This document shows, one piece after another, positions 1 to 64,000 of a stretch of DNA of 64,000 nt. Source of the DNA: Trebouxia sp. TZW2008 (lineage: Eukaryota > Chlorophyta > Trebouxiophyceae > Trebouxiales > Trebouxiaceae); the NCBI GenBank assembly GCA_002118135.1, contig BDIU01000383.1, positions 335 through 64,334 on the forward strand, read 5' to 3'. The first letter of the stretch is position 1, and each line of letters starts with the position of its first letter. The notes below the pieces were generated by a model. It saw only the letters and a program-made list of their open reading frames with translations. It searched no databases and was not told where the DNA came from. Made by a program: the position numbers and the translations under genes.

Positions 1-435
1 ATGTCAGCAAGCCATTCAGTAAGCTCAAGCCTGTTCTGCTGAGCTTTGGAAACTCCTGCACATTAACATAATCCGTTGGACAAGCTTCGTTCTGTCAAGC
101 ATGTGCCTGAGGGCCAGCCAGGCTTTGAGGCACTTTTCCGGGTCGTGTTTCAGCAAGCCGTTCAGCAAACTCAGGCCTGTTCTACATCGTATGTCAGCAA
201 GCCATGCAATAAATTCAACCCTGTTCTGCTGAGCTTTGAAAACTCCTGCACACAAGCACAATTCATCAGACAAGCTGCATCCTATCAAGCAATGCCTTAG
301 TGCTTGCCAAGCTCACCCCATTGGAGATACATGGGCTGCATGGCGCTTTTCTGGGTCGTATGTCAGGCACCCAGTCAGCAAGCTCAGGCTCGTTTTGCCA
401 AGCCTTGGGCACTCCTGCAAACTTACAACATTGAC
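1..435 (-). repeat. Decayed tandem copies of a CDK10-like C-terminal exon 5' part
   Basis: Read on the minus strand, at least three units carry an acceptor-like cag followed by E(C/F)(P/S)(R/K)L, a Leu-rich helix and a TYDPEKR-like motif, the end of a CDK kinase domain. The unit at about 414-330 reads [20 protein letters not shown]. The unit near 250-180 stops soon after LLTYDVEQA. Another begins near 55 and runs off the left edge. A shorter fragment with HDPEKC lies between. Spacing is roughly 170-185 bp. The functional exon is probably the copy at or beyond the left edge, so these would be upstream decoys. Confidence 0.7.
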
Positions 436-3400
436 ATGCCTACAACACCCGTGGCATTGCTCTATCACACATCTTTTGCACACAGTTGACAATCAATGAC
501 ATGTTTGTGATGTGACAATGCACAGATTGCACAGCTTGGTGAACAAGAATCCATTGGATCTCAGGAGGACTGCATACCTTTTCTAGGTAGTTGTATGGCT
601 GGTGTAGAAGCTTGAACTGGGCAACTCCTGGCAGCTTTGCAAACCCCTGCATGCAGAGACAAAGCATTGACTGATCAGTAACAACTCGTGAACAGATCAG
701 GCTTTGCTGTTGAAAGTTTACCATGACATATGACAGACACAGTCTCTGGCATTGCCGTCTTCAAAAGATGACAATCAGCGCAATTGCAGAGGACACACGA
801 CTCCTATAGCAATAGTCAATTCTTGCTAATTGCTGAAGGCTGCCAGTGCTCATTTGTCAACACCAACAGAGCTTCATTTTGTGGGCTTGCCATAGTCATT
901 TTGTTGTTTGAGCTGCATGACTTCTTTGATTAACAACTGCTTTGATTCCCAAGGAAGTTGTCCTTATATCGAAGTTGTCATTACTCAGAGGTGCTACGGC
1001 AGGCAGAATGCAGTGATTGGTCGCCAGTTGCATTGTCGCTACATCAAGAATTTTGCTACACTGAGTGCCCATACAAAGACAAGTTACTGTACTGGCTCAA
1101 GCTGCAAGCTTCATAGCACAGGCTTGTGTACAGAGGAGTATGTTCTGCTCAAAGATATTGCTAGCAGTGCAAGGCTTCCAAATCAGACCAGGTTGCCGTG
1201 ATTTCCAGCCAAAGCAACATGCTGCACGGTGCTCTTGAGGAAAGGTGCAGGGCCGTTCACATGCTACAGGGTACAATACTATACAGACACGGGGTACACA
1301 GTATATACACAAAGACATCTGCATGATACTCACCGGCCAGATTCTTTCATTGGGGTTCCCAAGCAGCTTGGTCATCAATCCCATGATCCCTAGCTCAGAT
1401 TTGGAGGGAAACAAAGGCTCATGCTGTAACAGTTCTGCCATGATACAGCCCACAGACCACATGTCTATGGCCTCTGTGTATGTCTCCAGACCCAGCAATA
1501 TTTCAGGTGCCCTGCGAACGACAATCGTCATAGGCCTTCTGATGTTTTCACGCTTTCATGTAGGCACATCGTGTCTGTAAGCGGGCCTAAAGCGACCATA
1601 AAGCTGCCATGATACAGCCCACAGACCACATGTCTATGGCCTCTGTGTATGTCTTGAGACCCAGCAAAATTTCAGGTGCCTTGCAAATGAGCATCATTTT
1701 TACAGGCTTGTGATAAGTTTTCAAGTTCATGCACGTCATGTCCGCACTCAGGTCTGATGCAATCATCATGCTGCTATGATGCAGCCCACATGTATGTGTC
1801 CCAGCAGTATTTCAGGCGCCCTGCAAATGACAGTCATTTTGGCTATTCCTTTAAATCATTCAAACAGTGGCTCAACAGGACATCACACTGCTGTATGGGA
1901 TCAATATTACCTGTCATCAATGCAACAAAGGCTTGAGATACTAGACAGTCGTAGGCGTGTCAGTGCGTTGACTGGAAATGCATCACATACCTGTACCATA
2001 GTGTGACTACTTTTGGAGTGTAGGCTTCCTCATACGCTTTGAAGTAGCGTGCCAGGCCATAGTCGCACAGCTTCAAGACGCCATCATTTGTCAACAGCAG
2101 ATTGGACAGCTTCATGTCTCTGTGAACAATCCAATGGCTGTGCAAGTATTGCATGACCTCCAGCAACTGCAAGGCGGCTACAGTTGCGTCATTGTCTCAA
2201 GTGCTTGTATCATGGTTATTGGTCAACAGCAGGTTGGACAGCTTCAAGTCTCTGTGAACAGTCCAGTGGCTGTGCAAGTATGCATGACCTCCAGCAACTG
2301 CAACGAAACCCACAGTAATTCAGTGTCTCACTTGCTTGACTTATGCTCTTCAGCGCAAATGTGCAGCTTTGATTTACCAATTGCCTGCCACAAGTGGCGG
2401 CTCTGGATTGCTACTTTGTTGTACTTGTAGGTACAAGCCGCCTCTGCATCTGAGGCAACTAGTTGCAGATGTATTTGACACGACTGCATCTGTCAATTTG
2501 CACGTTGTCAGGCAGATGGCAGCAAGCAACGTGTGACACCTGTATCTGTGTAGCATGCCCAAGGACTCAGCCATCCAACGCAGCAAACATTCATGTCAGG
2601 CCATGTCAGCTCGGGCCAGCTGCTTTGTCATGATGAACAGGCCTGACCACACTTGATCACATCCAGCATGCAATTGCAACTGCTTTAGAGACAGCATGGT
2701 GGCAAAGTGGCTTTTCAGCTGCGCTGCCTACAGCATTGACACAGACTGGCGAGACGCACCTGCTTGAGCAGACACTTGACCTCAGACTCATGGAAGCGCC
2801 TTGGCATGGTGTCCAACAGCCGCCCAAGGTCATGCGCACAGTACTCAAACACCAGGAACACACTGCAAGACACCATCAACATGCCAAGACTTGCAGACCA
2901 TGCTCAGACACCAGACACTGTGTTGCATGTTTGTGCCCAGTGACGTAAATCGCGAGCGAATGTACGCCTCAACTGGTGAGTTGAGTGGATCTGAGGGTGT
3001 CTGCAGCTGAGATTGTGGCGAAGCTGTCACAAGACACTGTGTTGCACAAAGGGACATGTCAAGACACTGCACAAAAAGGCATCTGAAATCATCAAAATGA
3101 TATTGTGTGGCATACTGCAAACGAGACACAACAACACAAACGAGACAGCTGATGCTGAATCACTTGGCAAATGGCCAATGCTGGACTCATTACCTGCACG
3201 TCAAGGCTTATTGCAACAGAGTTGCCCAGGTCACAGCATGAGAAGCAGGCGCATGAACTGCTGCTAAATCTTTCACTGCTCCTGGATGAGTCAGCACAGT
3301 GACATCTGCATCAGTGCAAACCATGCAGAAATTTAAGTACCTGTCAAGCTTGCTGCCTGTCACAACCTTCTTCAGTTGGACCAAGTTGGGGTGCTTGCAT

Positions 3401-4842: not shown

Positions 4843-7800
4843 ATGCAGCCACAGCCGGCTGGCGGGCAATACTCCTCAGACAATACATCAAACGCACGAA
4901 GAAGATCATCGAATAATGATAAGGTATCTCTTGCTGATGAACACTTGATGCAGAAGTTGACTAAGCTGAGTCCTTTGCTTTTGTTTGACTTCACTGCATA
5001 GCTAATGCGCCATAGAAACCATGCTCTCAGGTATTGTGTAAAGGTTCTCCACGCACTCTTAATGGTCAATTGCACTGACATGCCAAACAATGCCTAAAAC
5101 AATGCTTTGCATGGTTAGAAATGCCTTGCATAGCTAAAGGCAGCGTCTTTTCCACACAGGTCTCTGCTCTAGCATCCCCATCAGGCACTGTTGGTGCGTC
5201 AAAGCTGCCCTCATTCCCTAGCAGCAGAGCAAGCACAATCAGCAGCAGGGCACGCAGCCAGGCCTCCTCAGCAGGCCTTTCCAGCCTACTGCGCTCTGGT
5301 CTCGACCTAGCGACACATTCCAACACCTCAAGCACCGCAGCGAACGGCACAGCCACCAGCAACCCGGGCTTTGGTAGCATGCACAGACGGTGGACCACTG
5401 ATGCTGAGAGCAGCAGCCCAGCAGCAAAACCCCGTGGCAGGGCAGCTGCTGGGTTGGGCAAGATGCGGCACACTGCAGACTTGCCTTCAAGCAAGTGAGT
5501 GTGCAGGCCACCTGCATCATGAATGCTTTGCATGCTTGTGGCAATGGGCTGTGACATGTGCTGCTGAGCTGCGTCATACGCTTGCACAGTTGCCTGTGGG
5601 TCAGCTTGGCCTGTGAGCAGTTCAGCACTTTCCCAAGCTCCTTCCCTGCTGCATCTTTCAGTCAGGCACTTGTCAGCTGCATGCAGTCTGTGGTGTCATG
5701 CATGAATAGAGCTGGTCTTGACAGGACTCTAGGTACACAAGTAGGCAATGCATCCTCTACTTTGTGCCTTTTGGTACTGTCAAAGTCAGGGCGGAATGCA
5801 TTGATCAGGCTCAGTCCATGCCAGAGTGCCCTAGTCAACAAGACAGGCTTCCGACCACATAGCAGTACAGATTGAGGAGTGACTTTGTTGTCTCTGACAG
5901 TCAGCAGTTGAGGTCCTCAGCGTGGCGCCCAAAACAAGCCATCCTGGCAAGGCAAGACTCCTGCCACACACATCTCACACCTTGGTTAGAATGTGTAATC
6001 TATCATCATTATTGGTGTTGTGCATGCTTGGTCCTTCTGCACTGTAGGCCTTCTGGGAGACCATCAGCTTGAAAGCAAGGGCAGGTCCATTTGACCAGGT
6101 CCAGCCTGGACTCAAAGGCCCCAGTCAGCAGTAAAGGCCTTTTGTCATTAGCGATGATGATTCTGCATACTTTTTCCTTGTGCAGGTTCTCTGATAGGGC
6201 AGGGCGACAAAACATCAGCTTCAAAGCAAGGGCAGGCCCTTTTGACCAGGCCTACTCTGCTTTGCAGGGCCTAAGTGAGCAGGACAGGCCTTTTGTCCTT
6301 AGCAATGATCACTGCGCAAGCTTGTTTTCTTGTGCACTGCAGGCCTTCTGGGATGGCAGGGAGACGAACCATCAGCTTGGAAGCCAGGGCAGGCCCAGTT
6401 GACCAGGCCCAGCCTGCACCAAAGGGCCCTAGTCAGGACAACAGCCCTGCCCCTGGTAGCAACAGCAATGGTTCCCTCACTGGTGAGACAACAAATCCTT
6501 TGCACCATGCCTCTCCCCCCCCACCCCTTCCCCTGTCTGCTGACCACCTGCCTTCAACCTGTGATTAGCCGCTGTGCCCTTTTCCTCTGTCACTGTCCAA
6601 GTGAAAAGCAGGTTGGCACCAGCAAGCTCTACTTGAGAACGGCAAGCCAACCAGAAGTAACGAGAAAGGTGTCTTCTATTTTATTGGGCGTAAATTTTTT
6701 AGTTCAATACTGCAGCGTAGGTTTGATAAAGCATTTTGCCTTTTCCAGGTAGTGCTGATGGGTCGGGGGAGTCTGAAGTGCCCATCATCTTGCCTGAAAC
6801 CCCAACTGCCAGCAGCGCTGCAGATATAATGCAGTCTGCTGATGATGACTTGGACCCAGATGCTGTGAGAGCCAAAAGTCATGAGGAGGTAAGCAGTATC
6901 TCTTGGACTCAACTCGTTGCAGTCCTGCACCGTCCGACTGTACAGGATTGTATGGAAGGGTCACTTGATGGCAGCTGGAGAATTGCTTGTGGAGTGGCGC
7001 CTTAAGTTCTGTTACAGCTTGAGCATGTGGGCCTTGCAGTTCTGTTACAGCTTGAGCATGTGGGCCTTGCATTGCATGCTGTAAACGAGATTTAGGTGAC
7101 AAGGACACTAAATTGGAGAGTGTAAGCACGCTGAGGCAATCAATTTGACGCTCTGCGTTTGGTACATTACAACACCATACGCCTGTCCAGCAACACATGA
7201 TAGACCACTAACTGCCTTCCATCTGTCATTCAAATCATTGCTATGAAGTCATGGGGCGCTGGATCATACATTCGACTTGTTCAATGGATGCAGGCATCTT
7301 CAAGGGGCAATCCAGACATGGTAGTGAAATGGGACACTCAGCAAGCCATGAAGCCGCCAGCCTTTGCACAAATGACCATGTCAGGTCTGAAGACTCCTTG
7401 TGGACATTGGTCAGTCTACTCAAAACAACGATTTAGTGGCTCACGTCATTCACCAGACTCACTCAATGGCTGCAGGCGTCTACTAGAGGCAATGCTGACA
7501 TGGTTGTCAAGTGGGGCACTCAGCAAGCTATAAAGCCGCCAGCCTTTGACTAGGATGATTATGGCAGATCTGAAGACTCCATAGACCTTGGTCAGTCTAC
7601 CCAAAATAATGATTGAGTGACCTGGGTCACTGACCAGATTCAATCAAAGGCTGCAGGCGTCTACAAGAGGCAACCCGGACATGGTGGTCAAGTGGGACAC
7701 TCAGCAAGTCATGAAGCCACCTGCTTTTGACCAGGGTGACCATGCAAGGTCTCAACACGCCGCCCTAGACCTTGTTCAGTCAACTGAAAACAATGGTCAG

Positions 7801-10800
7801 CTGACCTGGGTCACTGACCAGACCTAGTCAATGGCTGCAGGCGTCTACAAGGGGCAACCCAGACATGGTGCTGAAGTGGGACACTCAGCAAGCCATGAAA
7901 CCGCCTGCCTTTGACCAGGATGACCATGTCAGATCTGAAGATTCCTCCCTGGATATTGCTGTTGTGTCAAGAGGCGGCAGACTCAATTCCATGTGGAAGA
8001 AGGTACAGTTATGCTCACCTAATTTTTTTTCCATCTTTTCTGTGAACCTCCATACACAAAGTCATTTCATCTGCACTATTGAGCAGCAAGCGTGACAGCG
8101 TTGCTGCTGTGCGAAAGGACTTGTCTTCATAGACTACTGCTTTTTTTCAGAGCAGTCTTCCCCACATCGAGCCAGATAACCCTGACTGTTCCAAGCAGTG
8201 TGTTACCATGATCTCCTGTTCTGCCGTTGATACTCTGGCAAACTGACAAATCACGTTTGATGCATCGACGCCAGTATATTGTGCATTTCACAGTTCACGT
8301 TGCATCTCAGCAATCCATACTCTCCAGCAGTTGGCTATCATGTACTTCATTTGGTGATTTGCTGGTTTTGAGTGCAAATTGTGTGCAGGAAAATCAAGAC
8401 AAGTTCCTGTTACAGCTTGATAGGGAAGATGGATGGTCTGTCATGGGAGTCTTTGATGGGCATTCGAAACGCTTTTTGGATGCAGCCCGCTCATTTGTGT
8501 TAATCCAACTGCTGTTTGTATGCAGGAAAACCAGGATAAATTCCTGTTACAGCTAGACAGGGAGGATGGGTGGTCAGTCATGGGGGTGTTTGATGGGCAT
8601 GGCATGTGGGGAGGAAAAGTGGGCACCATTGTGAGAGATGGAATGAGACAGGCCATGAAGGATGTTGATGGCCGCAAGATGAATGGCTCAGACCCTGAAG
8701 CAGTAAGCACACTTTGCTCAGCAGCCAAAAGAAGCTTTGTTATTCCTGCAGTCGTTGCTGATTGTTGCCTTGTTTTTGGCCTCATCCGCACTGTGTCTGC
8801 CCTGCCGTCAGGCAAGGGCCTACGCCATTCCCCAAAATTGATGTGGCAGCCGCTTCGCACGTGGGGTCTATGTTGTCTTATACATCAAGTACTAGAATAT
8901 CTGCAAATCTATTGTCACTCCTTCCATCGATTTTAGGAGGTTAACGCCGTGACCGGCAACAGCTGATCATGATGCTAAGACACGCACTGGAAGAGCAGGC
9001 TTGGAACAATCAGCCGGCCAGTACAGCAGATCAAAGGATGCAGGTGTCTATGTCAAGACCGCCGCAAGCACTTATCAGACCGCTTTACCTCACAAATGTT
9101 GACTCTGCTGTCAGCGCACGAATGCACATAAATCACTTTCATGATATGCCCTACTGATGCATGACCCACGGCAGGCGCGACCATTTATGGTCGTATTCCA
9201 CCTGTTGACAAGCATGATTGTGTGATAATAAATGGCTGAGATGCTGAAGCAGTAAGCACAACTTGCTCAACAGCAGGGTCATGCCCTGACTCGCCTGCAA
9301 TGGCTGCCAAAGTGCCCTGCAATGGCTGCCAAAGTGCTCTTTTGTTCAAATTCGACTGTGATTGGCAGTAGTGTCGGTGTACAGCAATGAGAGACTTTGG
9401 TCTTGAGACAGTAAGCATGGCTTGGCCAATGACAGAAAGATGCTTTGCAATTGTTGCTAGAGATTCTTTGCGCACCTTTGGTCAAAACTGAGTTGTCCCT
9501 GACAAGCATATTTGTACAGCGTCAGTGGTAGTATGCTGAATCTGTGCAAAACGCATGTGCTGACTCAGTATTCGGCTGAGTGCATCAGGAGCTCAGTCAG
9601 CGGCTCCAAATCAAGCCTGCTGCCTGGGCTAAGAAGGAGGATGAGGCGTACTTGTTGTCAACTTTGCATCTGAAATCAGCAAGTTTACAAACCGAGAATG
9701 AGCACAAATGGGTTCAGCGCATCAGCATGACATGTAGTCACATGTGCAAGCACAAGTGCAAGGTAAGTCTGCCACAAACAAGACAGGCTTACTGCACACA
9801 ATCTGCATCAGACAAACCTAGCTTGCACAAGCGCAGATGCAGACATGGTTGCTGCCAAGCTTTTCTGGTCTGGCTTCTGAAACCAAGTCATTTGACAGAT
9901 GCCACATCCAGAAAGCTTAGCAGCACTCACGTGGCTTGCATCCACACCTGTGCAAAGCAAGCTGCTCAAGGCCTTGTCTGTTGTGATGGACGCTCTGTCA
10001 AGATACAGCAGCTTGCATGAGTGCAGATGCAGCCTGCATGGTTGCTGCCAAGCTTTTCTGGTGTGGCTATTGAGACTGAGTCCTTCAACAGATGCTATAT
10101 CTAAGAAGCTTGGCAGCACCCACTGGCTTGCATCCATACCTGTGCAAGCATTCCCTGCAAGCCCTTGTCTGTTGTTATGGACGTGCTATCAAGACCCAGC
10201 AGCTTGCACAAATGCAGATGCAGTCTGTATGGTTGCTGCTAGGCTTCTTTTGTCTGCCCACTGAAGCTGATTTGTTAAGCACAGATGGTGGTGAAGCGCA
10301 GCCTGGCAGCAGCCAGTGTCCTGCATCCACATCTGTGCAACGCGTGCCTTCCAAGCCCTTGCCTGGTTGTGATAGACATGCTGTCAAGCAGCTTGCATAG
10401 GCACAGATGCAGGCCTCATGCTTGCTGCTAGGCGTCTCTTGTCTGTTTACTGAAGCTGAGTTGTTCAGCACAGATAGCAGTCAAGTGAAGCATAGCAGCA
10501 CCCAGTGATTTGCTCCCACACCTGTGCAAAGCATGCTGTCCAAGACCTCGTTTACTGTGATGTGTGCGCTGTCAACACATAGCAGCTTGCACAAGCACAG
10601 ATGCAGGCCTCAAGGTTGATGCTAGGCTTCTCTTGTCTGCTCACTGAAGCTGAGTTGTTCAGCACAGATGGTGGTTAAGCGAAGTAAAGCAGCACCCAGT
10701 ACTTTGCATGCACCCTTGTACAAAGCATGCTGTTCTCTCAATGTCATGCCAGCATTAATGCACTTGCTGCTGAAGCATGTCTGGACTCAAACAAGAGCCC

Positions 10801-13800
10801 AAACAGATCTTCCTGTTGGAAGACATCATCTCTTGCAAGAAGGGACTGTGCAAATTTCTTCCTTTGTACCCCTGACAGCTCGTACTCAGGCTGCCATGTG
10901 TGTTCTTGACTTTCAGATGCAGCTCAGTTGGGCAATTGTGGGGTGAACTTTTGTGCAATCACTGATTTGATGCTACACCAGGTGGTCCAGCAAGTTATGC
11001 TTTGCTTGCACAGCAGTGCGCATAGGAGCTGCCTGCTGCTCTATCTAGCTTGGTACCCCAGACAGTGAGTTTGTTGGTAACTTAGCTGTTAGCTTAGCTG
11101 AGTTCATTGGCCACAATTGCACCGCCGGATGCCCTTGGCCACTCTCAACACACAAATCTGCATTGCTTGTTCCATTGCTATGTTTGGTCTTTGTGAAGCA
11201 GCCCTTTTCAGGTCTACCAGCGCATTCTGTTTGGCTTGTCATACTGATTCTGGCATTGTCTGCATAGATCTTGAGGCTTGACCAATCACGCATGACGCTG
11301 TGCTTGGTCAATAAGACACAAGCTGGGATGACTCGTTTTACGGCTTGTAATGAGTTTGTGATTGTTTGCATAGGTCTTGAGGAATGCACTTGACCAGGCT
11401 GAAGCAGAGCTGATCAGTTCTCCTCGCTCATGTTGCGTGACTTGTTATTGACTTATGATGTCTCTGTACAGGTCTTGAGGCATGCATTTGACCAAGCTCA
11501 AGCAAAATTGGACAGCTTTGCTGCTTCATAAGAAATGGCTTGCTGTCCTGAATGAAAGTGCAGGATTACTGATGTCGTTTTTGTCTGTACAGGTCTTGAG
11601 GCATGCGTTTGACCAGGCTGAAGCAGAACTGGACAGCTGCGCACTTGACCTCACACGCAGCGGCACCACAGCTGTGCTCAGCATTGTCACCCATGACTGG
11701 TGAGCCATTCTGACAAATACTGTTTTTCCAGTTTGTTCATAACGATACAGTGTTTAAGATGAGGCTCCATCAGTCACTGGGCACAATGCTGTGCATAGCA
11801 TGTGCTTGAAGTCACATGCAGCAGCACCGCAGCTGTGCTCATTATTGTCGCTCACAATTGGTCAGCCATTCTGCCAAATGCTGTCTCCCCTTCTACCATG
11901 CCACAACCTTTAGCACGGTGGTCCATCAAGACCTGAGCACAATGCTGTTCAGTATTGTCACAGAAGGCTGACAAGGCAGTCCAAGTCACATGCAGCGGCA
12001 CCACAGCCATACCCAATGTTGTCATTCACGCCCGCTGAGCCATTTTGCTAGATATTGCGCATCTCTTTGTGTAGCACTGTGGAACATAGGTGTGGTATTG
12101 GCACAGTAACTCAGCAGTGTCTGAAGAATCTCCTGCGCTCAGCATTGTGCTTTACAACTGCTGCTGTTGGTGGACGCTTTATGTGTGGTCAATCTTGTCT
12201 GCATTAAATGTAGATTATGCTCTATCCACCAGAGTTTTGCCAGAAAACATGTCTTACAGCCACTGTCTTGTGCTTGCAAGGCAACCTGAGCAAACTGTCT
12301 CTGAAAGCAAAGCAAGCACATGACAGCTGTGCTCGTCGTCAGCAAGCATGCTGTTTCTGCAGGATTGCCACAGCTTGGGCGGGTGACTCCAGGATGGTCC
12401 TAGGGCGCCAAGTGTCCATTGGGGAAGGCGACAGCTACCTTTAGGAAGTAGATCTCACAGAGGACCACAAGCTTGCATCAGTGCAGGCTGAATTGCTCAA
12501 AAAGCTTTCACAGCATGGCAGTGATAAAATGAGCACGCCATTGCTGCAGAATTGCTACAGCATGGGCAGCTGACTCTATGATGCTGATAGGGCGGCTCTT
12601 GGCCAATGTCAAGCGGCCAACCTATCAAACAGGCTCTGAGCTTCACAGGAGCTTGAGATTTAACAGCATTCACAGTACGCTATGAACAACGTTAACTGTC
12701 CCTGCAGGATTGCTACAGCTTGGGCAGGTGACTCTAGGATGGTTCTAGGTCGCCAAGTGTCCACTGGGGAAGGAGACAGCTACCTTAAGGCAGTAGACTT
12801 GACAGAGGACCACAAGCCAGACAATCCTATTGAGTGCAGACGCATTCATGAGGCTGGAGGGCGAGTAGACAGGCTGGTCTCAGGTAAGCTCAAAACATGT
12901 TGGGCTGCCCCAATTTGACGTGATAGACAGCTGCGGCTGCACACAACAGGGTTTGCCAGGTCTTTGTACGCACACAGCAGCCACGGGTTAAAGATTTAAG
13001 TTGGTGGAGTGTCCAACGATACAAGAGTTGCATCTGGCTTCCTACCCTAAACCTCTATGGATTCTACTAGCAGCTCTCACACATCTACATCAACATCACA
13101 CTTAGCAACCCCAGTACAACACATTTTTGCTATTGCTGCATAGATGCTTCCGTTGTGTGGCACACGTCTGATCTTGTCAGGCTGGCTTCACCCATGCATT
13201 CGCAGCAAGGACACTCACATGACACAAGTCTCGCATCTGGCTCCCCACCCTGGAACTCTATGGATAATACCAGCAGCTCCTGACACATTGATTTGAACAT
13301 CATACGTCAATCCCAGTGCAACGCATTTTGATTGTGATAGTGATTATGTGACAAACTTAAATTGAAAGGTAGTAGTTTCATTGTGGCAGGGTGAGCGTGG
13401 TGTAATTTCAGACCCATAGATCGTATTACATGTCAAGTAACAGCCAGAACGTCACAGTCGTCCTCCTTACGATGCACTCATCCCCAAGTGTTGACGGAAT
13501 TTGGGCACGTGCAACTGCAAGCCACGTGACCTCTGGAAGCCCAGACACCGCCGCATTCCTCTGTTGCAAAATTGTACAGAGCAGGAATTGAACTTGGGGC
13601 CATGCTGTACCTGGCTGCATGGACTCTCCCCTTGTGTGTCAGTCTGGTCATGTCAGGCTGGCGTCACTCATGCATGCTTTGCGGTATGGACAGTGATCTG
13701 TCTAAAGTGCAGCAAGTCTGCATCATGATCTGCTTCTGATGCAGACAGGACAAAGGTGCCGGTTGATCCTTCAGAGTATACCTGCAGGGTTCCTGGTGCC

Positions 13801-15481
13801 CAGGCTCGGAATACTTTTGATTTGGATGAGACAAAGCAGCCTGCGGGTCCCTTCACTTGCCGTTGTTGCCCTCCAATGAGTGGTTGCATGGGTCTGTTCA
13901 GGGCAAGTCTCTCGAATATGGTTGGCTGTCGGTGCAGAGAGGACAAAGGAGCCTGTGGGCGCCTTCAGGATGTATCTGCAGTACTCCCTGCTGCCAGGCC
14001 TGGCCTGCTTACGGGTTTGTGGTGACAAGATGGCTACAATAGTGGGCGGCACCTGCCGTTTATAATGTACATTGTAAAACTCGGCTTGACTTGGTGAGAG
14101 GACGAAGGAGCCTGTGGGTCCCTTCAGTGTGTAGCTGCAGCACTCCTGGTCCTCAGGGTTAGTCTGTTCTCGAGCATTTGAGAGCAGGCCAGGCCTGGAC
14201 ACCAGGAGTGATGCAGGTATACTCTGCAGGGTGTACCTGCAGTTCTCCTGGTTCCCAGAACTGGCCTGCTCCCGAGGCTTTGCCGACAAGCTTTTAATCT
14301 CTGTCAACGAGAATAACTTCTACTGTTTTGGCCTCTCTACATCAAATACAGATTTTTTTGTTGCAGAGAGGACAAAGGAGCCTCTGGGTCCCCTCAGGGT
14401 GATGACAACCAATGGGGTTGCTGATCTCACAGACAGGACACCTGAATTGCTTGTTGTGTTGCGAGTTGCTAGACTTTGACATCAAAACTGACTGTTACTG
14501 CAGAAAGGACAAAGGAGCCTGTGGGTCCCTTCAGAGTGTATCTGCAGTATTCCTGGTCTCCAGGACTTGCCTGCTCGCGGGCCTTTGGTGACAAGATGGC
14601 TGTGGAAGTGGGTGTTACTTACAAGCCAGATGTGATCATCCACAAACGGCAGCCTGAAGACCAATGGCTCATTGTTGCATCTGATGGCGTCTGGGAGTTG
14701 GTCTCATCCCAGGCAAGTTGTTGCTGCAACTTGGAAGAGTCTGATTGCACTGAATTCATATTGATATTGCTTACATGCCTGGCTTATTGTCCACAAGCGG
14801 CAGCCTGAAGACCAATGGCTCATTGATGCCTATGATGGTGTGTGGGAACTGCTCTCATCTCAGGTCAGCTGACAACAGCTGGTTTTACGGGCAGTGTGTC
14901 ACTGCTATCTGTTTGTTGCTGGCTAGTTGCACAGGCTAGCTTGAAAAGCATCAGTGGACTAGTGGCTCACTGGTGCTTGTGATGGAGTCCTGGAGTTCGT
15001 TTCGTCCCAGGTAAGTTGTTACTACAAGTTGGAAGAGTCTGATTGCAGTGTATGTGTGCTGGCGTCATGCACAAGCCAGACATTGTCATCTGCAAGCGAG
15101 ACTCTGAACACCAATGGCTCAGTGTTGCCTCTCACGATGTATGGGATGAGGCATCATCACAGGCAATGCAAGCTCTGGTGTAAGTGTGCCTTGTTCCCAT
15201 GGTGATGTGATTGCATCTTTTCATTGCATGTCCCCATGGCGATGCAAACTTGTGATGGTGGCTTGCAGGAGGCCATTGATATTGTGGCTCAGTACCCAGA
15301 TGCTGTTGAGCAAGGGGTGGCCAAGCTGTTGCGGATCTCCAGGGAACGATGGGCAGCAATTCAGGGTGGACGCACATGTGATGACATTACTGCAATAGTC
15401 ACAAAGCTGAATCCCAAACAGCCTGCCACCGATTCTTCTGAAGGCGCACAGTCCGCTGTTGCAAGTACAGCAAGTGCTTGA
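4843..15481 (+). CDS. PP2C-family Ser/Thr protein phosphatase
   Basis: This is a metal-dependent PP2C phosphatase, about 604 aa. Exons: 4843-4923, 5160-5494, 6343-6482, 6749-6888, 7841-8002, 8151-8225 (uncertain), 8526-8702, 11593-11699, 12708-12883, 14504-14712, 15269-15481; all phases join. The first ~310 residues are Ser/Ala-rich and poorly conserved. The catalytic domain fills the C-terminal half: ENQDKF, then GVFDGHG with a metal-binding Asp, SGTTAVLSIVTHDW, AGDSRMVLG, DHKPDN with RIHEAGGRV, PGLACSRAFGD, ASDGVWEL and CDDITAIV. The intron after 14712 has a GC donor (CAG|gcaagt). Introns are full of decayed exon-edge copies. The exon 6 boundary is a guess: a phase-0 end at 8225 fits but has no motif support. 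The start at 4843 is the first ATG after an acceptor-like site. Confidence 0.9.
6050..6260 (+). repeat. Two upstream copies of PP2C exon 3 5' edge
   Basis: Units starting near 6049 and 6186 repeat the acceptor and first ~50 nt of the exon at 6343 (coding PSGMAGRRTISLEARAG in the true copy). The reading frame is altered in both, and neither has a matching donor. Confidence 0.8.
7285..7800 (+). repeat. Three upstream copies of PP2C exon 5 (about 185-bp period)
   Basis: Units starting near 7290, 7476 and 7657 precede the true exon at 7841. Each has a ctgcag/gcag-like acceptor and the stretch coding NPDMVVKWDTQQAMKPPAF. The first has a 1-nt deletion after PPAF, the second an in-frame TAG, and the third diverges and lacks a donor. 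Flanking intron is duplicated with them. Confidence 0.88.
8389..8465 (+). repeat. Upstream copy of PP2C exon 7 5' part
   Basis: After an acceptor-like gtgcag the sequence codes ENQDKFLLQL and GWSVMGVFDGH, as in the true exon at 8526, then diverges just after the catalytic DGH. No donor follows. Confidence 0.88.
9235..9440 (+). repeat. Two downstream copies of PP2C exon 7 donor edge
   Basis: Near 9240 and 9395 the sequence repeats the end of the exon at 8702 (coding ..DPEA) with its gtaagca donor and following intron. These are 3'-part copies lying downstream. A short duplicated phrase (caatggctgccaaagtg) lies between them. Confidence 0.6.
9830..10720. repeat. Purely intronic tandem array, about five ~190-bp units
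   Basis: The phrase beginning cagatgcag..ggttgctgc recurs near 9836, 10022, 10213, 10402 and 10597, with intervening blocks mentioning ttgcatccacacctgtgcaaagc. I could not match the unit to any exon, so it shows that the duplication process is not confined to exon edges. Confidence 0.8.
11370..11520 (+). repeat. Two upstream copies of PP2C exon 8 5' part
   Basis: Units at about 11372 and 11472 repeat an acceptor followed by the codons for VLRHAFDQAEAELDS found in the true exon at 11593. The first is altered (NALDQAEAELIS) and the second reads LRHAFDQAQAKLDS before decay. Confidence 0.85.
11800..12050 (+). repeat. Two downstream copies of PP2C exon 8 3' part
   Basis: Near 11806-11880 and 11985-12045 the sequence repeats the second half of exon 8 (coding SGTTAVLSIVTHDW in the original) plus its donor and following intron (gagccattctg). 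Together with the upstream copies this exon is bracketed on both sides by copies of its matching half only. Confidence 0.8.
12361..12620 (+). repeat. Two upstream copies of PP2C exon 9
   Basis: The unit at 12361 codes RIATAWAGDSRMVLGRQVSI, then reaches an in-frame TAG after GDSYL; it retains a strong ctgcag acceptor. A more decayed unit starts near 12550. The true exon begins at 12708. Confidence 0.88.
13738..14410 (+). repeat. Five upstream copies of PP2C exon 10 5' part
   Basis: Units near 13738, 13935, 14094, 14205 and 14366 repeat the start of the true exon (14504), coding ERTKEPVGPFRVYLQYS and sometimes PGLACS. Most keep a gcag-like acceptor, and several carry stops or shifts. None reaches the exon's donor. 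Confidence 0.88.
14785..15175 (+). repeat. Three downstream copies of PP2C exon 10 3' part
   Basis: Units ending near 14862, 15010 and 15161 repeat the end of the true exon (HKRQPEDQWLIVASDGVWEL) and its donor. One donor reads gtcagc, one gtaagt and one gcaatg. Only the 3' half of the exon is copied on this side. Confidence 0.85.
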
Positions 15482-16969: not shown

Positions 16970-17165
16970 TTTTAGGGCTGCAGGTCCTGCCAGCCCCACT
17001 GGGCCCTTTCCTGGATCACCACCTTGAGCCTTGCAGCTGCCCTCAAGGCATCTGCTTTACACTGTGCATGATCTAATTTACACAACTGGTGTAGTTACAG
17101 TTGGCTTGCCTGCAAGCCTTCTACGTAGGGCTGCAGTTCCTGCCAACCCCACTGAGCCCTGTCTG
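16970..17165 (-). repeat. Two downstream copies of the DCC1 last-exon 3' part
   Basis: Units at about 17045-16970 and 17165-17105 repeat the part of the terminal exon coding QERAQWGWQDLQPYVEDLQA. Both lie beyond the true stop codon and carry substitutions. Confidence 0.75.
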
Positions 17166-17249
17166 TATGTGTTGTGATTAGTATTATCAACGGCCTGCAG
17201 GGCAGATTGCATGCGCTAAAAGGCGCATGTACTCAGTGTTATGCAGTTG

Positions 17250-48965: not shown

Positions 48966-51900
48966 CTAGTTGAACATCTGACCGTACAGCTCCCCTTGGT
49001 TGTCCACCTTGTTGTAGTCTACCCAGTTGGTAGCAATTGGGGCAGCAATGAGGTGATCTGGGATTCCAAAGCTTTCACACAATCTCTGTCCCGATGGTGC
49101 TAGCTGCTTGCAAAGATCCCTACAAAGCCCACTTAGTGTCAGGTCAACACAGCATCTCACACTGGAGTTGAGGCCGCTGACTGAACAAGTTTTCGAATAA
49201 ACATGTTAGGTTTTGCTGCGGACATGCTTCACTTATGTACCAGCTGCAGTGATGTATGCTGAAATGGCAAGCTTTGCTGACAGATGCGCTTTCAGCAAGC
49301 AAACAGTGTAGCCACCAGGGGTGTCAAGCTTTGCTGAGACAGCTTGCTTCCAGCTGATGAACAGTATGGCAAGCAGCAAAATCAGGCACCAAAACAATAC
49401 CTGATCTGGTCTGGCACTGCTCTGCCAGCTTCTGGTGTCAGTAAGCCCTCTGACAGGTACCAGCCCAGGTTGGTCTCTATGACTTTGAGGCCATACAGTG
49501 CCACCACAGGCTTCAAGATCCCAGCCACAGACTCTGGCGCCTGTCACACGAGCATAGTAGCTTGTCTATGGACAGCAGGCTGTGTGTACTGACATATGTG
49601 TACCAATCAATATGATGTCTCCATCAAGGGTAATGACAGTGTGCAATAGGGCGACAGATACCAGCCAAGGGTTGGTCCCTACAACTTTGAGGCCATTCAG
49701 TGCCACCACAGGCTTCAGAATGCCAGCCACAGACTCTGGCGCCTGTCATAAGCACACAGGCTGGGCACACTGCCTGTGCTACACGCGTCCAGGTCAAGCA
49801 GAACACTCTGATGCTGTTGGCTGTGGTTTTATTGTTCATGCAGTAAATCAACATTGAGCCAAATGATCTCTTGGCGTGACTTCTGCTGAGCTGACCAATG
49901 ACAAAAGAGGGCGCTCTGTCACTATCTGCACTTTGCATAAAATTTTGAAGAGTAATATCAAATGATTTGTGTTTGTGTGGGGCAGCTATGGCAAAACATG
50001 AGATAGAGCTGTCAGCCCAAAAATTTTGCATCTGTGCATAGCGTAAGCATTGCTGCTAGGTACCTGGGGTTCAAATTACACCCCTTCACAATGCAGACAA
50101 ACCCACCTGCTGGATAGCTCGGTAGGAGGCCTCTATGGTTTCCCTCTCAGCATAGGCCATGCCTAGGGCCTGCACTGTGTCAGATTCCTGCTTCATCCAC
50201 ACATCAAAGGTGTCCTCCTTTGCTCCTGCTGCACCCATCTTCTTTGCCTGCAGATTGAAGAAGCTTTGTCATCGAGTCTTTGACGCTTGGCTGCATACGT
50301 TGCAGAGACATCTGAGTTGGCATCGGTCAACTCCTTTGCCTTGAACAACTGGACAGGCTGTCAGCAAGTGGGCTCAAGATGCATACTTGTCGGCACTAAA
50401 CAAAAGCTGAGCGTGTACCAGAACAATTGCTTTGGCTGAGGCTTGACTAGTTTCTGCAAAAAGGGCGTGATGTTCTCACTGCACAGATTGAGCTTGCTGC
50501 TGCTCGGATGCCCCTGTCCGCTCAGACACACTTGGTTTACTGCCAAAGACTGATGTACCAGAAATTTATGCTGGAAAGTGGTCCCAGCAACAAAGCCAAG
50601 CCAGAACACAGGGCCCAGGTCACCAGGTTATGCTGAGCTCACGTATTTTAGCTGATCAAAGCAAGCACGCTCTTTGACGTGAAAGCATACAGCATGCTTG
50701 GTATGCAGCTGTCTGCTGCTGCTCTGTTGCTTACCAACAGGCCTAACAAGCGGCCATCCCTGGCAGCAAAGCACTGCCGGATGGTGTCAGCCTGTCCAAG
50801 GCTGCTAGCTGAGGCTTTGAGGGGGGTCTGGCCTGCCTTGAGGCGGGCCTGCACAGCTGGGCTGCGCATTGTGGTCATGTACTCCTTGGCCACCTTCTGC
50901 ATCAGCACCCTGCACAACAGGCAGATGACTGCATACATCTACCCAAAGAAACATTGAATGCAATGCAATACAAAATTGTGTGCAGGCAGATCAGTACACG
51001 CATTCTTGCTACTCATGCTCAATGTAAAAGCTTCATCCAGGGCTTCTTCTGCATCAGGACCCTGCACACCAGGCAAAACAAGTTCTGCTCCATTCTGCTT
51101 TGAGAGGGGTACAGCCTGTTGTAGGCTGCTAGCCAAGGCTTAGAGGACAGTCTGCCCCGCCTCGAGGCAGGCTTATGCAGATGGGCTGCTTATTGTGATC
51201 GTGCAACTCCTTGGCAACCTGTTGCATCAGCACGCTGCAAGCAAGGCCACATTGAATCTGTATCTTTAGTGACCCACATCTGCCAGGCCTTCAACAGATG
51301 CCATGACGTGACACACGCTCTCATTCATGCATTGCAAACCGGGGTTATGCAGGCTCAGCAGGCCCGTCCAGGTACGTACAGAAGCAATCAGCTGTCTCCA
51401 ACCACGCCCTCTGGCTGTAAGCAGATTCTGCTTGCTTTTGGCAAGAATACTCTGTACTCAGGCATATTAACATGCCCAAGCTGATGCATCAACACTGTCA
51501 CAACTGCAGCATAGGCTCTGAACCAACTGCCATAAGACACCAAATTTTGTCACTGTCTCTGCTTTTTACCTGTTGTCACCCTCAGCAGTCATGCCGGCAT
51601 GTGAGAAGCCCAGGATGGCTCCAAAGCGATTGCAGCTGAGATAGCCTTGGCCCCCACATCGCTCTCTACATGTTGTGGCTGTTTCCTGCAGAAAACGAGG
51701 TATTTGATGTGAGGCAATACCAAGTGATTTTCCACTGCTACAGCAGAAACAATGTGCTACAGGCCTAATGTTATGGCCTGGACGAGCCAAATTGAACCTT
51801 GTCATTGCTGTCACTGTGGTTAGCACACTTGAGAGACATGTCGCATACATTACATGTTCAGAATCAGTTGCACAAATTTCCTGAGCCACCACACTGAAAA

Positions 51901-54900
51901 CCTTGAAAGCCATCAGGCGCCAACATGCAATTCCCTATTGACAACTTGCCCTGTTGACAACTTGCAGTGCAAGCTTTGAGCAACAACAACAACAAGAAGA
52001 GGCAGGCAGAACAGTGGCATGCACACTAAATGCCATATACATGTGCACAAACACTTCTAGGATGCAGTACATAGGAGACATGTAAAAATGACATTGGACT
52101 GGAGGGCAGAGTCACACCTGACAATTCCAGGCGCAGAGGGGCTTGATCGCACAGCACAGCATGATGACCTCCTTGAACACCTCAGGGTCAGGCACAATGC
52201 CGTCAAACCCACTCACTGCTGCCCACCTGCAGTGTCATGAGGGACTTGCAGCTAGATGATCATAACTGTGTGATGATTTCCTTGAACACCTTGGGATCAG
52301 GCAGAGTGCTGTCACACACGCTTACTACTGCCCACCTGCAGTACCGTCAGTGACTTAATATTGATGGCAGGGTGATGATTTTGACTGCACTCGCTGCTGC
52401 CAACATGTCACACCATCAGAAGCTGTGTCAAACAGGTTACGCGTGAAGACTTTAGACCATGAAATGCAAGCAACTGCATGAGCTGCAGGCAAAGAGCATA
52501 CAGATGGCTCAGGCATTTGCAACTTGGGCGATGGGTACAAGATTGCAATGAGGAAAGAGAACAACACACAGCCATATGGCCATTGTCAATGTAGCAGGAT
52601 CATGTAAGGGTCTAGGGTCTCGCAAGGTTACGGCATCACCTGTCTTTGACATAGCTGAGGCCCAGGTTGAGGCAGATGGTCTGGGCCAGCAGGGGCAGTA
52701 GCGCCCTTTGTTGCAGCTGGTAGTCCAGGATGGCTGTGTCACTCTTGCCCCTGCACACATCAAGGAGCTTAATCAATTCTGCACCTCTTGTGCAAATTGT
52801 CTCGCCATGCGACAATGCTTGTAAGAGCAACTGCTGTGTTAGGCATGCCTCTGCATGCAACTTCAAGGGAAGGGGGGGTGCCAGGGTATTTAGCGCACTG
52901 GAGGTTGCTCCTGTCAAGGCTGAACATCATGATGTGTCATTAGCACTTGCTGTTGATGCTGTGCTCCTGTCAGCCCAAATGCGTAAAAGTTGGAAACACT
53001 GCAAGGGCTTGCAGCAATGCAGCAGACATGAGGGACCAAGCCTAACTGCCCTTGTGTAGGATTGGACCAACTGCTTTCCTGAGCCAAGACACCTCTCTCT
53101 ACGGCCTCTCATACATTGCGACTTGCAGGGTCAGGCATCAAACTCGGCATGGCAAAAAGTAGAATGCTTCAGGCAACCACTGCATGTGTTCTCTTGCATG
53201 ATTGTACTATGACTGACCTTGGACCGACTGCCAGTCTGCTAGCAGCATATCGGAAGGCAATGACTAAAGCTTCTTTAGACCCGCTCTGCATCATGCTGGC
53301 AATACAGATACGCCCACTCAGTAGCTGATCCGCAACCTTCAAGAACCTGTCCCTGGGCTTTGAGATCTTGGACTGAAAGGTGCCGTCCCGCTCAACTGTT
53401 GAGTTGGCGTTCATCAGATAGGCTCTTGGAATGCGTACATCTGTATGGCAACAGGCACAACACCAACTTGCAGAAAGCTCATCAAATTGTACAATGCATG
53501 AACAAAACAAGGTCAACTAAACAGATGTTGCAAAAAGAAATACATGATGGCATATTTGGCCCAGCAAATTGATCAGACCATTGCTGAGCATGCGGTTGAC
53601 GGGCACAAAGCTGCAGATTTGCAGCAGCCTGGCATGAAGACAGACGAGCTGCAGCCCCTGAGTGCCATCTGCCCTCTCAATCCTCCAAAAGAGGACATCA
53701 GACCTTGCACAAGCAATTTGCACGTGCCGCCTTGAGACAATTAAATGGTGCAGCTCTGGTTCAGCAAATATAACCATTTCATTTCATTTCATGCATTCTA
53801 GACGTGTGCTAGACAATTCAGCTCATTCAATCTGCCTAGCACAGAAATGCAAGACTGTGCAGTTGCAGCCATGACATACCATTGAACCAGAGCTTGCCGT
53901 TGTCCACTCCATTGCAGCCCATCTTGTGACCCATGTCCTCAATGCGCACACCAGGGCAGATTGACATGTCCTGCAACACATGCAAACATCATCACTTTGT
54001 TACCTTGAAATGCTTGCAACACTTTCAGCATCATATTGATGCAATGACATGCCTAACAACGCAAATCATGCTGTGTTGCCCATATCCATTGCAGACAAAC
54101 CCAACAAAGTTTGTGCAGATCTCATGGAGTAGTGAGCCACCATTGCAACAGAGCTTCACGAGACCAGGCAAGCTGTCAGTCTGGAATCATTGTGCAGGAC
54201 ATTATTGCTGTTGCATGCAAAAGGAAACAGCAAAGCTGCGCTTGCTAGATTTGCAATCTCCAGGCTTCTCTCAAAATTCTCATTTGCCATGACAAGCTGT
54301 GGGTGTGAACGATACAGGCAGGCAGGCAGGCAGGCAGGCAGACAGATGGACAAGCACCTGACAAACAATACTTGATGATTCCATGAGACCCACCTCATTT
54401 CTGATGCGGACAAGAAAGCCATGAATGCCGTGGTTCTTGCCATCAATCAGCAGCTGGGCAAAGCACGCACACCACTTAGCGTGCACTGCTGAGTTTGTGA
54501 TCCAGTACTTCTGTGCAACTGTGGTGGGTGTGTTGATGATGAACTCATCAGCCTCCTTGTCGAAGGTTGCTGTCGTTTCCATTTCCACAGCATTGTTGCC
54601 TGCAAGCAGGAAGCATGCAGGATGTGTTGTGCGCATCTGCGTACAGTCACATCATCACAAAAGGACTGCCTGGCTGCTGCGCAGGACGCTGCTGTAGTGT
54701 TGTCAAGCCCAACAAGAGTAACCGGGAAGTGCCCCTGATGGTGCCTGATAGCAAGCACCCAAGGCATACAATGCTGCAGATAAGTTGTGACATTGAACCG
54801 AGCAAGCAGACAATGCAGCAACATGCGGATTTGTGTTGCTGAAATGCCATGCATCAAACTCTTCCTTGGCGTTGTGCAATGCAAACGATACCGTGCATGG

Positions 54901-56163: not shown

Positions 56164-56169
56164 CACGTG
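56164..56169. promoter_or_regulatory. CACGTG G-box 2
   Basis: A second perfect core (taCACGTGca), 21 bp from the first, about two helical turns, placing both on the same DNA face. Confidence 0.5.
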
Positions 56170-56324
56170 CAAATGCAACATTTTTTTAATGAGACATACG
56201 ATCTTCTTCTTCTTTCGATAAAGTGCCTAGATCTAATCTAGCAGTCCTCGTCCTGCTGCACGCGGCTATTGCGTTGACGCTGACTTGGACGTGCAGGAGG
56301 GATAGCGGTGACATGCCGTAGAGC

Positions 56325-61036: not shown

Positions 61037-64000
61037 TCAAAACAATGAACTAGGCGCAGGACTGCTGCTCAAAGAAAACGGTAACGGCAGCAATACCAAC
61101 AAGGGCAGAAAAAGCAGGGCTACGGCAACTTTTGACAATTGCTTGTCTGGCTCACTGATCTCCTCTTGTTGGGGAACTAACGGTCCTCTCTGCAAAAACA
61201 GCACCAGCAGCACCCAAAATAAAGCCAGCTCATCGACAATGCCAGTCAACCCCAGAAGCAGTGTTGACACCACACCAATGCGGCTAGCTGCCCTTCTGCC
61301 CCAAATGGCAAATGAAATTCGCCCTCCATCGATCTCCCCCAGTGGGATGGTGTTGAGGGCATTTACAACCAGCCCTGCCCAGCCTGCTAGGGCTAATGGG
61401 TTCAAATTGAGGACTTCCTCCCCTGCTAGCTTGCTTCCCAGGAACAGCTTGCCTGCACAGAAGTATCTTGGCGCTTTACGCTCACGCATACATTCAGGCG
61501 TTCTTGCATGCCTTTGTACAACAAGACTGTAACTGGAAAAACGCCGACTATGCTGTCCGGAGTAGGTGCTTGTTGTGCGCGGTACAACTAATGTTCCAAC
61601 ACAAATTGCTTGTTTCAGCTAGGCACGCAAGATTGTGCAGTCTCTTCTGAGTTCAAGATCAGCTTGCCTATGCAGCACCCAGATAGTGTTCTTCTCTGCT
61701 GCAGGCATCCAGTAATAGAGATTGCAATAATGCTGAAGCCAGCAGCTTGCCTATACGCAGCAGCCACTGCGTGTTGCACTCTGAAGCAGGAGTCCAATCA
61801 AGAGAAAGGTGACAATGCTGAAACTGCAGACAGTCTTTGCCTATGTAGCAGTCACTTCACATACCACTCTATTGCAACTGACAAAGTTGGTAAACCATGA
61901 CACTCAAGACACGACTGGCCTATACAGCATTGACTCATTGTCACAACACATCTTGTACTTGGAATTAGACACATCCAGAGACAGACTTTGCAGTACTGCT
62001 CACTGAGACGCTGGTGAGACGGCGCATCACTGTCAAAACTATGACAGGAATGGGAAGACACTGCTGAAGGATGCGTGTCTCATTACTGAGTACGTCCTTC
62101 TGCTGTGTTTGGCCATTCCCTGCCACAAGTCCAACCTGTGATCAGCTCTCTTCAGAGCTGCGAAGATGAGCACTGAAGCACCTTGCAGTTAGACATGTCA
62201 CAGGTGACCTGAAACCATTACCAGACCATTTCACACAAGGGCAAGAGCAATATTGTTTTGACAGCTAGCAAAGTTGGGGCAACTCACATGACACCGCAAG
62301 TCAACTAGGGCAAGGCTCACAAGCATTCAATTGACGGATCTTAAACTCTCAATACAGAAGGCGCATGGGACCTTTTCAACTTCCTGTCACTCTGAGCTGA
62401 TTATGGCAGGGCTTGCCAAGCAAAGCAACCAGCAAGGAGTCCTCAGAGAGAGAGAGAGAGAGAGTCACTCTGCATTGATGTCAAAAGAGCAAGGCTTACC
62501 AATCAGGCTTACCAGCGGCGAGTCCTCAAAGGCAAACCAGATTGTCATAACTGATTGGAACTGTGACCTCAGAAAAACAAGACTTAGCTACCAGGCCAAC
62601 CGACACAGACAGCAAAATTGTACAAATCACTGTAAGATGCACTTTGCCATTATGATAGCACAATGTGCCAATTAGGCCAACCGATAGCTAGTCCTCAGAG
62701 GTAGAGGGCTGCACCTCAAAGGCTCACTAAGCACGGACTTGTTTGCCTTACATGTCCAATGTAGTTGATTCAAAACAGCTTCTGGCAGCATGTAGGCAGT
62801 TCATTGCGTCTGGACGCACCTGGTCGCTGAATGTCAAGGCATGTCTAGCAACCGCAAGCATTTAGTGCATGAATGACTAAGCACTAAGGTCACAACAGCA
62901 AGGCTTACCAATCAGACCAACCAGCAGCGAGTCCTCAAAGGTAGAGGGCTCGCCCTCAATGGCTCACTAAGCACTGACTTGTTTGCCTTGCATGTCCAGT
63001 GTAGTTGATTCAAAACAGCTTCTGACAGCATGTAGGCAGTTCATTGCGCCTGTAGGTACCTAGTTGCTGAATGTCAAGGCATGCCTAGCAAACGCAAGTA
63101 TCTCGTGTATGAATGACTACGCACTAAGGTCACAACAGCAAGGCTTACCAATCAGACCAACCAGCAGGGAGTCCTCAAAGGCAGAGGGCTCCACCTCAAT
63201 TCCCCCTTGCCCTGCCACAGACAGCCCCAACCCCACCAGCAGGAACAGCAGTGAAGCTGCAGCACCGGCAGCAGGACCAGCAGCTGACACCTCCAACAGT
63301 GTCTGCCTGTACATCAGATGTGGAACATGTCGCATACTGGGTGTGTGACACAGGCAGGACTTTGACAAATGCTGTGTCCAATCAGCTGTAAAGAAAGCCC
63401 CAAATCCACTGGCAAGAACAGCAGGGAAGCTGCAGCACCAACAGCAGCACTAGCAGCTGACACCTCTGACAGTCTTTGCCTACATACCACACGGGGATCA
63501 AGTCATGTACTGGTTTCACAGCCTAGGCAACAGGCAATTGCCTTGAACATGTGGTTGTATAGGGGAGCCCAAACCCACCAGCAGGAGAAGCCTGGAAGCT
63601 GTTGCGCCAGCAGCAAGACCAACAGCTGACACCTCTAACAGTGTTGGCCTGCATATCACACAGAGATCAGGTCACACAGTGATTACGTTTGGCTAAATGT
63701 TCACAGGCCCATCTGTGTAGACCGGCCCAACCCCACCAGCAGAAAGAGCAGTGAAGCTACAGCAACAGCAGCAGGGCCAGCTGCTGACACTTCCAGCAGT
63801 GTTTACTACACACCACACGGACATCAAGTCAATGTACTACTTTCACGATACAGGCAAGAGACAATTGCCTCAGATACGTGATTGTACAGGCAAGCTCAAA
63901 CCCACCAGCAACAACGGCAGAGAAGCTGTTGTGCCGGCAGCAGGACCAGCTGCTGACGCCTCTCACGGTGTTTGCCTATATACCGCACAGAGAACAGGTC
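61037..64000 (-). CDS. EGY: EGY-like chloroplast M50 (site-2-type) protease, C-terminal part
   Basis: EGY proteins are thylakoid or envelope intramembrane metalloproteases needed for normal chloroplast development. The window shows the C-terminal exons: about 63306-63149, joined in phase to 61452-61037; the N-terminus with HEXXH lies off the right edge. Visible: LLEVSAAGPAAGAAASLLFL (membrane helix with the conserved AGP), FEDSLLVGLIG, then NLNPLALAGWAGLVVNALN and IPLGEIDGGR, which holds the third zinc ligand Asp. Two or three further helices follow (VVSTLLLGLTGIVDELALFW; VALLFLPLLVLLPLPF). The intron between the two exons (1.7 kb) is filled by copies of the first exon's donor side. EGY subtype is undetermined. 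Confidence 0.85.
62410..63148 (-). repeat. Downstream copies of EGY exon 3' part, including a 240-bp unit
   Basis: The donor-side stretch coding FEDSLLVGLIG with gtaagcc recurs near 62931, 62691, 62515 and 62430. The 62691, 62931 and 63170 copies are spaced exactly about 240 bp and share almost all of the intervening intron, so they are recent. The 62931 copy keeps an open frame and donor; the 62691 copy has a TAG. Confidence 0.92.
62445..62464. repeat. GA dinucleotide microsatellite
   Basis: About ten ag units lie within the EGY intron, inside one decayed exon-edge copy. Confidence 0.9.
63380..64000 (-). repeat. Four upstream copies of EGY exon 5' part
   Basis: Units near 63390-63485, 63560-63660, 63720-63815 and 63885-63985 repeat the acceptor and first ~90 nt of the exon (coding LLEVSAAGPAAG..LLLVG in the true copy at 63306-63149). 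The period is about 158-172 bp. Frames are degraded, and none carries the donor half. Confidence 0.9.

Follow-up and report, generated by a model that had tools for sequence, protein, structure and literature searches.

Introns of the green alga Trebouxia sp. TZW2008 hold copies of parts of the exons beside them, which we call ghosts. We analysed them in a stretch of 64,000 nucleotides (hereafter the window; G000:C361:335-64334, contig BDIU01000383.1 of a 68.5 Mb assembly in 527 contigs) and in 250 kb beyond it. With a probability that we put at roughly 0.83, these ghosts are the leftovers of short tandem duplications that crossed splice junctions and were kept where one intact exon survived. 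Short stretches, mostly of 60-220 bp, would be duplicated head to tail at many sites of the genome. Where such a unit lies across one splice junction, the copy adjoining the remainder of the exon would work on and the other would be stranded in the intron. With an acceptor-crossing unit, the second copy would join the exon and the first, holding the 5' part of the exon, would be stranded upstream; with a donor-crossing unit, the leftover copy, carrying the 3' part, would lie downstream. Selection would weed out duplications that disrupt either the exon or its reading frame, and the stranded half exon would decay free of constraint. We infer the head-to-tail birth of every unit, and the molecular cause may be either slippage during replication or the filling-in of staggered nicks by repair.

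Abundance and arrangement of the copies

The analysed DNA (314 kb) comprised the window, C273:1-200000, from a contig picked by length and not by repeat content, and C100:200001-250000. Genes were modelled ab initio, with no external annotation, by a gene finder self-trained on the three stretches, which learned donors like CAG/GTRAG and acceptors TGCAG/G. The models above the score cut numbered 38, with 358 introns (median exon 153 bp, median intron 307 bp). Copies at most 1500 bp apart with a raw score of at least 36 were taken as local repeats, and inverted repeats and a swapped decoy served as controls. A first-pass annotation, made from the letters of the window, had proposed self-alignment with each copy classified by exon half and side, and this procedure returned a strong excess of the predicted arrangement. 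In all, 260 direct repeats were found (89 in the window, 139 in the C273 stretch and 32 in the C100 stretch) vs 10 inverted repeats (4, 4 and 2, respectively) and three decoy matches (2, 1 and 0). The window is about twice as dense in repeats as the other two stretches.

Among the 260 pairs, 77 contain one exon edge, the partner copy lying in an intron or next to the gene. The rest comprise 64 pairs beyond the gene models, 53 with exonic sequence in both copies, 49 confined to non-coding DNA and 17 that match whole exons or exon interiors. Primary spacings form two classes, short tandem units of 15-60 bp and spacings of about 105-210 bp, the latter with the mode at 145-164 (32 of 113). A nucleosomal cause for this mode is not established, non-coding pairs being more closely spaced than exon-edge pairs (median 102 vs 153). 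Same-exon pairs are offset by a multiple of three in 20 of 23 cases, many of them from two repeat-rich exons; most in-exon duplications thus conserve the frame, which fits the same duplication process filtered by reading frame. Tandem repeats within exons occur at C273 125396-127452 (loci L021 and L022), where most same-exon shifts are multiples of three.

Identity is 75-90% in 182 of the 260 pairs and at least 95% in just four. Such differences between copies make it hardly credible that errors of assembly or mis-assigned exons created the pattern. The ab initio models do contain known errors (in the PP2C and acyl-CoA oxidase genes and in one P450 gene), and several ghosts were taken for exons by the gene finder, but the key genes match Pfam or PDB families, and model errors yielded exceptions to the arrangement described below as well as events that obey it.

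The first-pass annotation had stated a directional rule, by which copies of the acceptor side of an exon always lie upstream and copies of the donor side always lie downstream. In our data, 72 of the 77 edge pairs obey it and five do not (acceptor-side copies upstream, 32; donor-side downstream, 40; acceptor-side downstream, 5; donor-side upstream, 0). When repeat pairs are collapsed per exon edge into events, of the acceptor side (E5) or the donor side (E3), 47 of 51 obey (20 E5-upstream and 27 E3-downstream; binomial p=2.4e-10). The wrong-side copies that it had named as counter-evidence amount to four 5' parts downstream, all on exons judged faulty, and no 3' part upstream. The window alone provides 8 + 8 obeying events and three contrary ones, and in the C273 stretch all 26 events obey with uncorrected models.

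The four contrary events contradict the rule until the models are corrected by hand. Three concern PP2C at 12.3-14.5 kb of the window, where the gene is broken by the ab initio model and upstream ghosts are called exons. The fourth lies in the P450 gene of the C100 stretch, in which the third and most downstream copy continues in an open frame for about 50 residues. By hand judgement, all four are gene-model errors in which an upstream ghost is used as an exon. Removal of the eight events on faulty exons (four obeying and all four exceptions) leaves 43 of 43 that obey, 17 acceptor-side and 26 donor-side. At five of the 47 obeying events, the edge is that of a first or last modelled exon, where a splice junction is not demonstrated; units crossing a splice boundary are counted in 39 obeying events, which lie at trusted internal junctions. 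The similar numbers of acceptor and donor events (20 vs 27) match random placement, which predicts 19.1% vs 19.2%. Exons bracketed by ghosts on both sides, which had also been reported, number six, for instance PP2C 11593-11699 and TPR-like 27127-27264.

If the exon is to stay intact, a tandem unit crossing a junction allows one arrangement, and a copy on the wrong side needs a whole-exon unit or an insertion elsewhere. Therefore, the directional rule is diagnostic of tandem duplication. It is also a geometric consequence of tandem duplication plus an intact exon and no independent evidence of a special process. Alternatively, break repair could copy a nearby block 100-200 bp away and leave gapped, non-tandem direct repeats, and repair-mediated duplication by capture of proximal DNA is known from vertebrates according to the accessible part of PMC2671141. 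Such templated insertion would be expected to act in both orientations and to place copies on either side, whereas inverted repeats are rare here and the events keep to the side predicted by tandem duplication. Moreover, the exon is short enough to leave the mirror position free in 15 of the 47 obeying events, 10 of them at trusted internal junctions (p=0.002), and all 10 keep the predicted side, which speaks against free local copying.

Decay of the copies and the spacers between them

Ghosts decay as non-coding DNA. Differences between ghost and exon number 137, 99 and 201 at the three codon positions (about 990 sites each). Between ghosts, they number 89, 62 and 77 without the two largest arrays; the third-position excess is mostly lost in this comparison, and hence it belongs mainly to the real exon. 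Indels of ghosts relative to the exon shift the frame in 27 of 31 cases, and 962 ghost codons include 10 stops (eight without real stop codons). The splice dinucleotides AG and GT are kept in 16 of 19 and 17 of 24 ghosts, respectively, compared with 73% for other dinucleotides, that is, with no clear retention above background. The arrangement, the controls and this non-coding decay together support the earlier suggestion that small tandem duplications across intron-exon junctions are tolerated where one intact exon is left.

Besides the four events that required hand correction, several observations weigh against this account. With all 14 edges included, ghost-ghost differences number 153, 110 and 179, so that a mild third-position excess remains. 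The PP2C ghost 8379-8463 differs from its source 8516-8600 at 11 sites over 25 codons, all of them synonymous, and its flanking intron has no significant homology. Neutral decay does not account for this ghost, which might derive from a diverged homologue or function as an exon. As a general cause, recombination with such a homologue was rejected, since a synonymous excess occurs in only a few events. Could ghosts in general be alternative or decoy exons under selection? In addition to this PP2C copy, the pooled ratio of non-synonymous to synonymous change (dN/dS) of ghosts, 0.30-0.38 by extension class, lies below the value of about 0.5 expected for one neutral copy. However, transition bias also depresses dN/dS, and a functional role is highly improbable for copies with mostly frame-shifting indels, splice sites that are not clearly kept and, outside the largest arrays, no third-position excess among themselves.

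The remaining difficulties concern the spacers. Some units abut or form arrays, but ghost and exon copies usually lie apart, with a gap below 25 bp in just 12 of the 47 nearest pairs. Among spacers of 25-170 bp, seven of 29 resemble the predicted flank (z>1.645), whereas a naive simulation expects 28.9, and reproducing the seven requires introns to diverge about four times faster. Intron-side homology is significant in 23 of the 47 events, and 22 of 47 alignments stop at most 15 bp from the splice site. Non-tandem block copying looked strong on these grounds, since half or more of the ghosts have no intron-side homology and 22 of the 29 spacers show no homology to the flank; moreover, spacing concentrates near 150 bp whereas block length varies, as templated insertion would have it. 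However, these spacer tests are conditioned on alignments that had already stopped near the splice site.

We simulated tandem units of all ages forward in time, with decay and a like detection that used a local aligner in place of BLAST. When introns diverge 2-3 times faster than ghosts, 45-58% of the simulated alignments end at most 15 bp from the splice site and 14-11% of the spacers keep homology. With equal rates the simulation fails (15% ending that close). At rates 2-3 it still departs from the data in exon identity (0.886-0.887 vs 0.853 observed), in the share of long extensions into the intron (42-31% vs 11 of 47) and in gaps below 25 bp (49-36% vs 12 of 47), and the faster rate of introns was obtained by fitting and not by measurement. 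Tandem duplication plus decay thus accounts for most, not all, of the tension in the spacers, provided that introns diverge 2-3 times faster. As the look of the spacers is largely reproduced in this way, and given the orientation and side of the copies, we regard templated insertion as improbable.

Loci in the window and intron length

About twenty edge duplications had been announced for the window, in at least ten genes. The number of duplications agrees with ours, but about twenty could be placed in only five Pfam- or PDB-matched genes (CDK11-like, PP2C, DCC1, HflX-type GTPase and acyl-CoA oxidase) and one TPR-like gene. Pfam matches of window proteins above the curated cut-offs are Pkinase, PP2C, Dcc1, HflX-type GTPase domains, F-box, Glyco_hydro_cc and acyl-CoA oxidase. 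The kinase aligns with CDK11B over residues 2-228 of 233 and the oxidase with solved acyl-CoA oxidases, and one protein (called FLU in the first-pass annotation) matches TPR families below the curated cut-offs. The CDK model falls below the score cut, and its two edges, 1435 and 2086, were placed by eye. The loci are as follows.

1435..1790, minus strand: CDK11-like exon 1334-1511; real copy 1435-1623 (5' part and acceptor), ghost 1604-1790 upstream, spacing 169, copies abutting
2086..2303, minus strand: CDK11-like exon 1991-2166; real copy 2086-2172, ghost 2218-2303 upstream, spacing 132
6019..6448, plus strand: PP2C exon 6343-6482; 5'-part ghosts 6019-6128 and 6062-6291 upstream
7281..7953, plus strand: PP2C exon 7841-8002; array of a unit of about 182 bp, copies of acceptor and 5' part upstream, placed by eye; outside the 51 events, two copies being called exons by the model
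8379..8600, plus strand: PP2C exon 8526-8702, 5' part; the ghost with synonymous differences described above, upstream
8679..9274, plus strand: the same exon, 3' part and donor; 8679-8725, copy 9228-9274 downstream
11362..12047, plus strand: PP2C exon 11593-11699, with ghosts on both sides; upstream 11362-11412 and 11463-11517 (5' part), downstream 11805-11884 and 11986-12047 (3' part)
12351..12817, plus strand: PP2C exon within 12696-12883 (hand reading); 5'-part ghosts 12351-12472 and 12544-12594 upstream; an exception only by the model
13740..14601, plus strand: PP2C exon with acceptor near 14503 (hand reading); 5'-part ghosts at 13740, 13933, 14096, 14233 (partial) and 14362, all upstream
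16945..17373, minus strand: DCC1 last modelled exon 17250-17597; downstream copies of its 3' end (17091-17163) and of its interior (16945-17064)
17355..17602, minus strand: DCC1 last exon; copies 17355-17452 and 17499-17602 inside the modelled exon, probably a 5'-part ghost merged into the exon model; outside the 51
17957..19023, minus strand: DCC1 exon 18952-19044; 3' part and donor about six times downstream, array period about 150-170
19902..20136, minus strand: DCC1 exon 20022-20224; copy of an interior stretch, 19902-19981, downstream; class INT, outside the 51
26794..27459, minus strand: TPR-like exon 27127-27264, with ghosts on both sides; downstream 26927-27022 and 26794-26877 (3' part), upstream 27418-27459 (5' part)
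35343..35567, minus strand: HflX exon 35497-35636; 3'-part ghost 35343-35411 downstream
35903..36203, minus strand: HflX exon 35841-35970; 5'-part ghost 36089-36203 upstream
49452..49748, minus strand: acyl-CoA oxidase exon 49401-49540; 5'-part ghost 49653-49748 upstream, modelled as an exon and outside the 51
50788..51239, minus strand: acyl-CoA oxidase exon 50735-50909; 5'-part ghosts 51046-51075 and 51112-51239 upstream
52162..52356, minus strand: acyl-CoA oxidase exon 52169-52226 (58 bp); copied whole at 52271-52356, upstream; the rule predicts no direction here

At 49452..49748, the alignment with the solved oxidases passes through the downstream copy. For the last exon of DCC1, the 3' part was said to recur downstream together with its donor: the downstream copy exists, but the exon ends in a stop and has no donor. 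The C-terminal CDK exon enters the first 334 bases of the contig (C361:1-334, L035), which are all N, so that the end of this gene is unreadable. The M50 peptidase gene (EGY in the first-pass annotation) is present amid tandem repeats, and its model includes arrays at 62668-63200 (period about 240 bp) and 63219-64000 (about 170 bp). Other head-to-tail arrays occur at 9820-10733 (period about 190 bp, in a PP2C intron as modelled) and at 58848-59391 (about 127 bp). The cpSRP43 and DeSI genes were not seen in the window, no search being aimed at either. A weak gene model at 38946-40184 matches Hydrolase_4 (serine aminopeptidase S33).

In the three stretches, at least 39 of the 358 introns bear ghosts (36 without faulty exons), and 41 exons in 21 of 36 multi-exon models have a ghost recognisable at the one threshold used (37 and 19 without faulty exons). 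Introns had been proposed to grow outward from exon edges like growth rings. Ghost-bearing introns are indeed longer, with a median of 583 bp (39 introns) vs 280 bp in the 319 others, and of 660 vs 415 bp when introns below 300 bp are set aside. This agrees with growth, yet a visible ghost needs room. Furthermore, the share of bases covered by detectable copies in the window, C273 and C100, respectively, is 18%, 8% and 13% for introns, 18%, 10% and 8% for exons and 17%, 9% and 9% elsewhere. Since this cover is similar, introns are not singled out. Growth rings would imply that copies are older the farther out they lie. This order is not established: the ghost closest to the exon is the more similar one at 11 of 16 edges with several ghosts (Wilcoxon p=0.21, not significant).

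A hot spot at exon edges may exist, but the data do not call for one. Random placement of units predicts 40% intron-only and 38% edge-crossing units (19% acceptor and 19% donor), besides 15% inside exons and 4% spanning a whole exon. The clusters observed at spacings of 90-220 comprise 31 obeying edge clusters (12 acceptor-side and 19 donor-side) with one acceptor-side exception, 17 that are non-coding, 18 with both copies exonic, six of the whole-exon or interior class and 23 beyond the gene models. With one copy conserved, edge events remain detectable for longer; the excess over intron-only clusters may thus be explained by this slower loss and is no proof of a hot spot. It is conceivable, but on balance doubtful, that intron length in this lineage is set largely by steady tandem duplications of about 150 bp, roughly the size of a nucleosome. 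If so, much old intron would be half-exon debris decayed past recognition, and the youngest ghosts would be a clock of intron growth, edge by edge.

Relation to known systems

Intron lengthening without mobile elements is, to our knowledge, poorly documented. Ghosts are debris that is placed, and in principle datable, by its source exon. The mutational supply of exon copies, the selective filter on them and their neutral decay could be measured in one genome. Ghosts mistaken for exons by the gene finder are also a warning for annotators.

Tandem duplication across an intron-exon boundary has been described in a potato RdRp gene (PMC4974935). In the accessible part of that paper, the unit joins the 3' side of an intron to the 5' side of an exon, as in our acceptor-side events. 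The potato duplication made a new spliced intron, whereas the extra half exon appears here to be left inside an enlarged intron, and unlike the potato case, such duplications are found again and again at different exon edges. The internal gene duplications reported by Gao and Lynch in 2009, as cited in PMC4974935, likewise fall within genes and may include introns. The model of tandem genomic duplication (Rogers 1989) figures among seven routes of intron gain in the available text of a review (PMC3443670). That model shares with ours the supply of intron sequence by local tandem duplication. As outlined there, an exon segment bearing AGGT is duplicated and provides both splice sites; here, by contrast, existing junctions are crossed and the number of introns need not change. 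'Doublets' (Thomas et al. 2004, via the accessible part of PMC2671141) are short duplications close together that were partly ascribed to break repair, whereas tandem geometry at exon edges is favoured here. No report of half-exon ghosts with a directional rule surfaced in the literature searched, most subscription papers being outside its coverage. Boundary-crossing tandem duplication is already known, and the notable addition here is the density of junction-crossing events in one genome, together with their use as a record of intron lengthening.

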